Virus record (IMG/VR): IMGVR_UViG_3300045284_000061
Span: 1-41,024 of that record
DNA from: a virus
Reading direction: 5' to 3' (one strand)
Length of the DNA: 41,024 nucleotides
Shown: positions 21,775 to 29,568 of the stretch, one piece after another
Layout: each line of letters starts with the position of its first letter
Numbering within the stretch: position 1 is the stretch's first letter
Position numbers and translations under genes: made by a program
The notes under the pieces: generated by a model
What the model was told of the DNA's origin: nothing
What the model saw: the letters and a program-made list of their open reading frames with translations, nothing else
Database searches by the model: none

Positions 21775-21899
21775 TGAAGGGCTCTCTGGCCGGGCTTGAG
21801 TACCGGCTAGTGAACGATATCGCCGAAGCTAAGCACGTCCTTCCGTGCTGCAGAGAGCCGCACACAGTTTACCTTGAGGTAGTCCAATGGTGTCCGTGA
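21774..21899 (+). CDS. Possible 41-residue protein over a structured stretch
   Basis: ATG 21774 overlaps the lipoprotein stop by one base and runs to TGA 21899, overlapping the next gene. The product has CC and HTVYLEVVQWCP near its end. The same bases can fold into a three-way junction (21780-21859), so this may be RNA structure rather than a gene. Confidence 0.35.
   Translation: MKGSLAGLEYRLVNDIAEAKHVLPCCREPHTVYLEVVQWCP
21780..21859 (+). other. Possible structured RNA: three-way junction
   Basis: GGCTCTCTG (21780-21788) pairs perfectly with CAGAGAGCC (21851-21859). Inside are two hairpins, GCCGG/CCGGC near 21788-21806 and AGCACG/CGTGCT near 21832-21849. A 9-bp stem alone is expected several times by chance in 41 kb; the nested hairpins make it more interesting. 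It lacks a tRNA T-loop. Confidence 0.35.
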
Positions 21900-27977: not shown

Positions 27978-28421
27978 ATGACGGACTGTGAATCGGCGGA
28001 GCAGCCGAACCTGAATCAGTGGACGTGTTTCCACTGCGGAGAAACATTCACCACGCCAGGGTCAGCTCGGGACCACTTCGGCGCTGTTGAGGGTACGGAC
28101 GCGGGATGTCTCGTTGATCGTGTGGCTGTCGAGGAAGGCGGCACGCCTGAACGGGGACGCGGGCTCCTGATGGCGCTCCGAAAGGCTGAGGGCCGGATCG
28201 CGGAACTTGTGCGCGAATTAGATCGTGTGGAGAACGATGCGCGGCTCTGGCATGAATCTGAAGCCGAACGACGTCGGTTACAACAAGGTCACGACACGTC
28301 ATGGTTTCTGTTCCTGGATTCCTTAGAAGGCGAGCGCCTGGTCTTAACTGAGCGCGTGAAGGAACTGGAAGCCATCGTGGGCGTGTCGGCGGGCCTCCCC
28401 GCGGCGGGGGAGGGGGAGTGA
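27978..28421 (+). CDS. Zinc-finger plus coiled-coil protein
   Basis: 147 residues from ATG 27978 (AAGGCGGG upstream); an earlier TTG would add eight residues. Residues 14-45 (WTCFHCGETFTTPGSARDHF, DAGCL) form a C2HC-type finger. Residues 65-140 are a coiled coil (KAEGRIAELVRELDRVEN). It ends in PAAGEG, encoded by the first copy of the GC-rich repeat that supplies the next gene's ribosome site. Confidence 0.65.
   Translation: MTDCESAEQPNLNQWTCFHCGETFTTPGSARDHFGAVEGTDAGCLVDRVAVEEGGTPERGRGLLMALRKAEGRIAELVRELDRVENDARLWHESEAERRRLQQGHDTSWFLFLDSLEGERLVLTERVKELEAIVGVSAGLPAAGEGE
28398..28415 (+). repeat. GC-rich ribosome-site repeat, copy 1
   Basis: CCCGCGGCGGGGGAGGGG. It encodes PAAGEG at the end of one gene and gives GGGGGAGGGG to the start at 28418. 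Copies follow at 28880 and 29219, with a partial one at 29402. Confidence 0.75.
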
Positions 28422-28903
28422 AGGCCTTGAGCCTGACGCAACCGTGGGCGACGTTGGTTGCCCTCGGCGCGAAGCGGATTGAAACCAGAAGCTGGTCGAC
28501 GTCGTTTCGTGGGCCGATTGCGATTCACGCCTCAAAGAGGTTCCCGCGAGATTGTCAGGAGTTGTGCGCGAACGAACCGTTTCTCAGTGTTCTCAAGGCG
28601 GCTGGGTTCACTAACACGAACGAACTACCAAATGGCGCCATCGTCGCCATGTGCAGGCTCGTACATGTGTTCCTGACTGGCGACACCCTGAACTATCACG
28701 ACCGAAGCCGCACGATACGCGGGCCGAATGGGTTGACCTACGAGATAACACCGCAGGAGATCGCCTTCGGGGACTACTCGCCCGGTCGATACGGCTGGGC
28801 GTTGGCTGAGGTGTGTCGGCTTCCGCAACCGATTCCGGCGAAGGGGTCACTCGGGTTGTGGAACGTCCAATTACCAGAGCCCGCGGCGGGGGAGGGGAAA
28901 TAG
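28418..28903 (+). CDS. ASCH-domain protein
   Basis: 161 residues from GTG 28418. The opening MKALSLTQPWATLVALGAK and RIETRSW, then FRGPIAIHASKRFPRD, are the classic ASCH signature, an RNA-binding or nucleotide-modifying beta-barrel related to PUA. Phage members are found beside DNA-modifying enzymes. It may read or act on modified bases or tRNA; function is not known. Its last codons are repeat copy 2. Confidence 0.85.
   Translation: MKALSLTQPWATLVALGAKRIETRSWSTSFRGPIAIHASKRFPRDCQELCANEPFLSVLKAAGFTNTNELPNGAIVAMCRLVHVFLTGDTLNYHDRSRTIRGPNGLTYEITPQEIAFGDYSPGRYGWALAEVCRLPQPIPAKGSLGLWNVQLPEPAAGEGK
28880..28897 (+). repeat. GC-rich ribosome-site repeat, copy 2
   Basis: CCCGCGGCGGGGGAGGGG again, identical over 18 bases to copy 1. 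It encodes PAAGEG at the end of the ASCH protein and places an SD just before the start at 28905. Confidence 0.75.
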
Positions 28904-28904
28904 C

Positions 28905-29039
28905 ATGACCGTTGTCGCGTTGTGCTTCGTGAGTTTTGGTGGCGGGTGGCTCCTGGGCTACGTGCTCGGCTGGAATGCGGGCACGAAGGACACCGAACGG
29001 CGCTGGTCCGACGCGGTGGGGCGAGCGGGGCATCGATGA
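28905..29039 (+). CDS. 44-residue membrane protein
   Basis: ATG 28905 to TGA 29039. A membrane helix (VVALCFVSFGGGWLLGYVLG) is followed by a charged tail (TKDTERRWSDAVG). Strong SD in repeat copy 2. The end overlaps the next ATG (ATGA). Confidence 0.58.
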   Translation: MTVVALCFVSFGGGWLLGYVLGWNAGTKDTERRWSDAVGRAGHR

Positions 29040-29242
29040 CGGACCGCACGCGCGACAGATCAAACTTCTACGGCGTCACGGTCTATGACCACGACGGCAC
29101 GATTGTGACCATTGAACCGGACATGCTCGCGGGGCGCGACATTGGCGAGCGCGAAGACGCGGCGATTCGTGCGGCGATTGAGCAACTCCGTGGGTTTATC
29201 GGGACCGAACGCCCACGGCCCGCGGCGGGGGAGGGACGCTAG
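29036..29242 (+). CDS. Small early protein ending in PAAGEG
   Basis: 68 residues from ATG 29036. It reads NFYGVTVYDHDGTIVTIEPD, EREDAAIRAAIEQLRGFIG and ends RPAAGEGR through repeat copy 3. Unknown function. It is the last well-supported gene before the structured region. Confidence 0.6.
   Translation: MTDRTRDRSNFYGVTVYDHDGTIVTIEPDMLAGRDIGEREDAAIRAAIEQLRGFIGTERPRPAAGEGR
29219..29235 (+). repeat. GC-rich ribosome-site repeat, copy 3
   Basis: CCCGCGGCGGGGGAGGG, matching copies 1 and 2 over 17 bases, again in the frame that gives PAAGEG. Confidence 0.72.
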
Positions 29243-29422
29243 ATGAGACATGAGGGTCGCAGCCCGGATGGTGACGGGCACGATAGACGGTTTCCTGCCT
29301 CGGCTCACCCTGAGCACGAAACTCCTTTGCCAAAAGCGTCTATTGGTCACGATAACCGTGCAGCCGGTTCGAATCCGGTCGACTCTCATCAGGACATGAA
29401 AGCGGCGGGGGACGCGCCCTGA
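29243..29422 (+). CDS. Doubtful 59-residue frame over the tRNA-like element
   Basis: ATG 29243 follows the preceding TAG at once and has the SD of repeat copy 3; the frame ends KAAGDAP* through a partial fourth repeat. The product is His/Asp/Pro-rich and not protein-like. Most of it coincides with the tRNA-like fold at 29253-29387, so I favour RNA. Kept as an alternative. Confidence 0.22.
   Translation: MRHEGRSPDGDGHDRRFPASAHPEHETPLPKASIGHDNRAAGSNPVDSHQDMKAAGDAP
29253..29387 (+). tRNA. tRNA-like RNA with enlarged anticodon arm
   Basis: Acceptor AGGGTCG (29253-29259) pairs with CGACTCT (29380-29386), one G.U at the third pair; TG/CA extend it outward. D-arm GCCC/GGGC (29262-29265/29276-29279) has a GG-containing loop. 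A 9-bp stem CGATAGACG/CGTCTATTG (29281-29289/29337-29345) replaces the anticodon arm and encloses 47 bases with further hairpins. A variable arm CACG/CGTG (29348-29360) and a canonical T-arm with loop TTCGAAT (29363-29379) follow. No anticodon with T33 is apparent and no encoded CCA. It may be a tRNA with an insertion, a pseudo-tRNA or a tRNA mimic. Confidence 0.52.
29402..29412 (+). repeat. GC-rich repeat, partial copy 4
   Basis: GCGGCGGGGGA shares eleven bases with the three full copies and again codes AAG(D) in the doubtful frame. Confidence 0.45.
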
Positions 29423-29471: not shown

Positions 29472-29568
29472 GTGCGGGTAAGAAAAAAGGCCGCCTGGGA
29501 AGGGCGGCCGGTCTCAGGTCAAGCACTGGAAGCAACAGCGCCGGGCCGTCATCGACCCGCACAGTTTA
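29466..29568 (+). ncRNA. Structured segment closed by a 14-bp stem
   Basis: TAGGCTGTGCGGGT (29466-29479) pairs with ACCCGCACAGTTTA (29555-29568): ten perfect Watson-Crick pairs, then two G.U and two A.U. Inside is GGCCGCC/GGCGGCC plus an A-rich strand. It could be a small RNA or an mRNA leader element. No known riboswitch was recognised. Confidence 0.42.
29483..29509 (-). terminator. Leftward intrinsic terminator
   Basis: On the reverse strand a 7-bp stem GGCCGCC/GGCGGCC (29489-29495/29503-29509) is followed by six T. It would stop leftward transcription, although no leftward gene lies just upstream. Alternatively the A-tract and hairpin belong to the structured segment. Confidence 0.5.

Follow-up and report, generated by a model that had tools for sequence, protein, structure and literature searches.

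It has long been known that phages produce stable tRNA-like RNAs whose purpose is unknown. An example is the species 1 RNA of T4 (rnaC, 139 nt), a small stable phage RNA found beside tRNA genes, for which we know of no function. Bacteria also have a known non-coding RNA that mimics tRNA, termed YrlA. Irregular tRNAs and allo-tRNAs encoded in polycistrons were found in metatranscriptomes from soil (Mukai et al. 2017, described in a passage of the review PMC7609411); according to the same passage, E. coli enzymes failed to charge some of the irregular tRNAs in vitro.

The tRNA-like RNA gene analyzed here is 136 nt long (29252..29387, + strand) and was recognized by its fold, a sub-threshold match to tRNA-Sec, a chance test, and covariation. 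It lies in a 41,024-bp IMG/VR virus record (the window, meaning the whole stretch of DNA that was analyzed), which encodes P22-type coat and portal proteins and a terminase-like protein. No phage close to the one in the window was found, since the window's portal protein had at most 33% identity to cultured phages among the matches listed. The upstream ORF (28922..29242, + strand), which had no Pfam match, ends with its stop codon 9 nt before the element, so that the element occupies a gene gap on the coding strand. The element sits among a series of small genes ending in the repeated motif GCGGCGGGGGAGGG; three successive genes of this series end in it (28401-28414, 28883-28896, and 29222-29235), with three copies in the window against 0.1 expected. 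A degenerate copy of the motif was found at 29402, just 3' of the element, and the repeats resemble cassette boundaries. About 100 nt downstream of the element, the minus strand carries a strong intrinsic-terminator-like hairpin with a T-run (29489-29509), facing + strand genes. Viral contigs contained no relatives of the HNH neighbour. The neighbouring ASCH gene led to 49 contigs, none of which carried a relative of the window's portal protein, indicating that these contigs are not near relatives of the window phage as a whole.

An earlier note on this DNA had placed a tRNA-like RNA at 29253-29387, with an acceptor, a D-arm, a variable arm, a T-arm carrying TTCGAAT, and a 9-bp stem around a 47-nt insert. 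All of these can be paired in the predicted fold (minimum free energy −52 kcal/mol, z = −2.2 against dinucleotide shuffles), and the arms stand as described, but the acceptor has 8 bp and begins one pair earlier, at 29252. It is formed by GAGGGTCG (29252..29259) and CGACTCTC (29380..29387, all features on the + strand), with no CCA encoded and ATC coming next. When the acceptor is read in a 7-bp register with 29253 as position 1, its third pair is the G.U reported in the note (G29255:U29384). The two-base spacer CA (29260..29261), which is CA or CG in the aligned relatives, is followed by the D-arm (29262..29279) with the 5-bp stem GCCCG/CGGGC and the loop GATGGTGA. The anticodon stem is replaced by central stem 1, in which CGATAGACG (29281..29289) is predicted to form 9 bp with CGTCTATTG (29337..29345); equivalents of this stem exist in the relatives. 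The 47-nt insert within it (29290..29336) can form nested GTTTC/GAAAC and CTTT/AAAG hairpins, or can supply a putative pseudoknot strand, GCACG (29314..29318), that pairs with CGTGC (29357-29361). The T-arm GCCGG-TTCGAAT-CCGGT (29363..29379, 5 bp) is stacked directly on the acceptor. The 4-bp variable-arm hairpin CACG/CGTG (29348..29361, or 29348-29360 in another reading) is less certain than the other arms, because 29357-29361 can alternatively pair with 29314-29318 in a predicted pseudoknot that has counterparts in the relatives.

The element is not an ordinary tRNA, an intron-bearing tRNA, a tmRNA, a tRNA-Sec, or a YrlA RNA. ARAGORN found no tRNA or tmRNA in the window and reported none of the five family members described below, and Rfam at threshold gave nothing in the window. 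The covariance check with tRNA and tmRNA models proposed in the earlier note yielded nothing above threshold, and the sole match at the element in a permissive Rfam search was tRNA-Sec, with 27.5 bits and an E value of 0.0016, below the gathering score of 47 bits. Of the canonical cloverleaf, the element has the acceptor, D and T arms, but a 9-bp stem enclosing 47 nt takes the place of the 5-bp/7-nt anticodon arm, and the element is below the Rfam tRNA threshold. For tmRNA, neither Rfam nor ARAGORN gave a match in the window, and there was no tag-peptide frame; for YrlA (RF02553), there was no Rfam match up to an E value of 5. It is barely plausible that the element is a working tRNA from which an unusual intron is spliced, a reading that the earlier note had offered. 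A 7-nt loop becomes geometrically possible once about 56 nt are removed, but inspection of the fold revealed a continuous 9-bp helix across the would-be loop rather than the two 3-nt bulges around a 4-bp helix of a bulge-helix-bulge intron, and no group I intron was matched in Rfam. Moreover, the relatives have different central domains and lack a shared anticodon stem from which an insert could be removed.

The core of the fold was rare in simulated DNA. A descriptor of the acceptor, the D-arm (with GG), and the T-arm, from which the 9-bp central stem was left out, had one match in the window, the element itself, compared with one match in 150 order-1 and none in 150 order-3 simulated windows. 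A looser descriptor had six matches in 120 simulated strands. That the fold arose by chance in coding DNA is scarcely credible: both the 59-residue frame 29243-29422 and the antisense frame are open, but neither had a Pfam match, a tblastn search of 50,697 phage records gave nothing for the 59-residue frame, about one window in 300 is expected to contain the core by chance, and there are four covarying relatives. Protein conservation of the 59-residue frame and loss of the stems in relatives had been named in the earlier note as signs against an RNA; neither was seen, the stems being preserved.

Distant relatives of the element, with differing sequences, were found in four other uncultured viruses, which makes it look like a real but undescribed RNA family; no description of it was found in the literature covered, which comprised open-licence papers and is hence weak evidence. 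A covariance model built from the window sequence alone (R1) was searched, with no motif selection, against 59 sources (514 kb) and matched L072:328-421 (36.5 bits, E 1.8e-4), whose source loci had been fetched via the neighbouring ASCH gene. Scans of IMG/VR with a D-loop/T-arm motif that left the stems unspecified yielded L113, L230, and L281, with R1 scores of 38.7, 42.9, and 40.1 bits, respectively. L203 carries the same element as L113, and L234 the same as L230, and the distinct members known, with the window, number five. Since three of these were baited with the D-loop/T-arm motif, the conservation of the D-loop is partly built in, while L072 was found without bait. Ordinary phage tRNAs in the same loci scored at most ~26 bits with R1. 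With the family model (R2), ordinary tRNAs reached up to 46.7 bits, so the tRNA body itself is not exotic.

Over 2.39 Mb of fetched DNA, the family descriptor matched no sites other than those in the window, L072, L113, and L230, L281 being a later find; in simulated DNA of equal size it had no match. An exact T-arm/acceptor scan of IMG/VR returned nothing beyond the window's own record. In BLASTN searches of the 50,697 phage records, the elements of the window, L113, and L072 had no match longer than 11% of the query, L230 matched only the T-arms of ordinary tRNAs, and phage tRNA genes made up most of the matches to the stretch around L281. Several candidates were set aside. None of the 10 pattern matches from a genome-collection scan was judged a member, as inspection found none with matching acceptor, D and T stems. 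The pattern match L202 was dropped because it reads as coding sequence, and the R1 matches L076, L035, and L014 were weak. The R1 match L018 was not accepted, being another irregular tRNA: the tRNA-like RNA at L018:1165-1284 (+) has an anticodon hairpin of the Ala(UGC) type, and ~40 extra bases separate its D region from the anticodon arm.

Other irregular folds were observed alongside these searches. In the window, a second cloverleaf-like fold lies at 21780-21859 in the gap between two + strand ORFs, with a 9-bp outer stem, a CA spacer, a 5-bp D-like arm, and a 5-bp T-like arm on the minus strand. It scored 29.1 bits (E 0.0014) with R2; its T-loop is non-canonical, and the neighbouring genes appear to be on the + strand, so that the minus-strand orientation is tentative. 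In seven contigs (L226, L216, L261, L262, L264, L269, and L270), TCAAACGGGATTCATGGATGGTGACCGCTGCCA recurs upstream of short tRNA-like sequences ending in GACTTGTCA or similar, possibly another irregular tRNA-like group.

The features that define the family were found to be an 8-bp acceptor, a 2-nt spacer, a 5-bp D-stem with a GA[T/C][G/A]GTGA loop, a 5-bp T-arm, no anticodon arm, and the possibility of crossing stems. In the comparison of homologous loci that the earlier note had called for, the alignment of the five members shows compensatory changes that preserve the acceptor, D and T stems. In the ungapped cores of the five members (18 pairs in these three stems), 98.9% of the alignment cells were paired and 13 pairs changed on both sides; none of 500 shuffles scored as high, and slid controls were 37–49% paired. 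All eight acceptor pairs changed on both sides, as did three of the five D-stem pairs, and both the D-stem and the 5-bp T-arm were 100% paired in all members. Apart from the conserved D-loop, the G-C pair closing it, the first G-C pair of the D-stem, and the C at the first spacer base were invariant. The 8/5 acceptor/T stack was present in the window and the relatives, with an acceptor of possibly 10 bp in L230 and one mismatch in L072, and the discriminator position was base-paired in every member. The G3:U70 pair, which the earlier note had read as an alanine identity pair, is present in the window (7-bp register) but absent from the other four members, suggesting that alanine charging is no shared property. 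The idea of a tRNA mimic is supported in a broad sense, with a body kept by compensatory changes and no decoding arm in any of the five members, but the reading as an alanine mimic is not supported.

The same comparison bears on whether the element is a tRNA gene in decay after an insertion into its anticodon loop. The tRNA body is intact, and ARAGORN with a lowered threshold reads a tRNA-Asn(att) with a 56-nt intron. However, decay would lose pairing, and differently in each case, while here the stems are compensatory and the D-loop, the spacer, and the topology are common to otherwise dissimilar phage contigs. We thus regard decay, which the earlier note had raised, as highly improbable.

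By inspection, a 5-bp/7-nt anticodon arm was absent from all five members. Instead, two crossing stems of one topology are possible in each central region. Stem 1 begins 0–5 nt after the D-arm; the 5' strand of stem 2 lies inside the stem 1 loop, and its 3' strand ends 0–2 nt before the T-arm. This topology occurred in ~2–14% of the shuffles of each member. With the first thresholds, which were chosen on four members, four of the five qualified (P ~1e-4), and after the start limit was widened from 4 to 6 nt for L281 all five qualified (P ~3e-6), both values resting on thresholds set post hoc, after inspection. Nested folds with good energies compete with the pseudoknot, particularly in L072 (a 7-bp hairpin) and the window. 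The central domain is probably pseudoknotted, on this modelling. Overall, we are confident that the element is a real, conserved, anticodon-less tRNA-like RNA.

The gene contexts of the members varied, and no shared neighbouring gene or protein partner was identified among the five. In L230, two phage genes on the same strand flank the element, which takes up the whole gap between them and has a ribosome-binding site after it. The L113 element lies downstream of YqaJ-like and RecT-like recombination genes (judged from translations). In both L113 and L281, the element adjoins a second irregular tRNA-like RNA and is surrounded by long non-coding stretches, with no tight operon. The neighbour in L113 (3355-3425, minus strand) matched the Rfam tRNA model with 35.4 bits, had no ARAGORN call, and has a reduced anticodon arm of about CCC-GACAA-GGG. 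The neighbour in L281 (8999-9107, minus strand) follows the family member within a few bases and has an 8-bp outer stem, a D-like arm, a long central arm, and a T-arm with an 8-nt loop; two normal tRNAs lie ~1.1–1.6 kb from the L281 element.

These contexts are relevant to the main rival explanation, in which the element is processing punctuation, serving mainly as a cutting site for RNase P and RNase Z that separates cistrons of a phage mRNA or protects a new 3' end, with the excised RNA having no function of its own. The acceptor and T-arm together are a minimal RNase P substrate, the window element closely follows an upstream stop codon on the coding strand, and the L230 element fits between two genes with the downstream ribosome-binding site intact. 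However, if the element were just a cutting site, it could do without a D-arm whose loop is conserved and without a central domain that is structured and apparently pseudoknotted, and the elements of L113 and L281 are not in tight operons. We consider this explanation unlikely.

Computation established the fold and that it is conserved in four further phage contigs, as well as the lack of an anticodon and the intergenic position on the same strand. The likeliest reading of these findings, which we favour tentatively, is that host tRNA-processing enzymes mature the element into a small phage RNA with a non-decoding role. A tRNA body kept without an anticodon suggests recognition by proteins that read the elbow and the acceptor, and argues against decoding. 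That body would comprise the stack of an 8-bp acceptor on a 5-bp T-stem, the D-arm, and an elbow formed by the D-loop and T-loop, with the anticodon arm replaced by a variable, probably pseudoknotted domain. The element would be co-transcribed with its neighbour genes and excised by host tRNA enzymes, with RNase P acting at the 5' end and RNase Z or exonucleases at the 3' end, because these enzymes read the acceptor/T stack and the elbow. The product would be a stable RNA of about 136 nt with a role other than decoding; in the simplest case, it may tie up host factors that recognize tRNA by its elbow or acceptor, while its specificity may come from the central domain. The paired discriminator in every member counts against this scheme, since RNase P cleavage could be shifted or weakened. 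For this mechanism of processing followed by an effector role, our confidence is well below that in the RNA itself being real and conserved. It is more doubtful still that the family as a whole, with its tRNA elbow, 8/5 acceptor stack, and pseudoknotted domain, acts without decoding on the host machinery for tRNA handling or translation.

A related possibility is that the RNA serves as a decoy or substitute that counters host systems for which the elbow or acceptor is the means of attacking or sensing tRNAs. A passage of PMC10264068 contains the proposal that phage tRNAs with changed anticodon loops evade tRNA-targeting defences, and the retention of the tRNA body with the anticodon absent would fit such a role. 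However, anticodon nucleases would have no target in this RNA, and with no CCA encoded and the discriminator paired, charging is uncertain. We consider a decoy quite unlikely.

The family has a defined consensus, is absent from Rfam, and is missed by a standard tRNA finder; it thus provides a handle for searches, and the RNA is compact and testable. If host tRNA enzymes do charge, bind, or cut this RNA, it would reveal phage uses of the tRNA body beyond decoding.

Among known systems, tRNA-Sec (RF01852) has the same 8+5 bp acceptor/T stack, a long D-stem, and an extra stem before the T-arm, but the element has no UCA anticodon arm, scores 27.5 rather than 47 bits, and has a 5-bp D-stem with an 8-nt loop compared with 6 bp and 4 nt in tRNA-Sec. 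The tmRNA (RF00023) also combines tRNA-like ends with pseudoknots where the anticodon arm would be, whereas the element has no tag reading frame, is much shorter, and keeps its D-stem intact. The YrlA RNA ends in an arm opposite the tRNA acceptor, while the element ends at the acceptor. The irregular tRNAs, as described in the passage of PMC7609411, resemble the element in being tRNA-like with extended acceptor stems, G-1, and extra loops and in being encoded in series. The allo-tRNAs, compared here by that description, have 8/4 or 9/3 acceptor/T stacks and anticodons, in contrast to the 8/5 stack and missing anticodon arm of the element. The nearest named precedent is, by analogy, the T4 species 1 RNA, which gave a partial match to R2 (22.8 bits, E 0.036). 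Its predicted fold has no D-arm with a GG loop and its gene context is different, but, like the element, it has a tRNA T-arm with UUCGAAU adjoining an acceptor-like helix, and long stems replace the D and anticodon arms.
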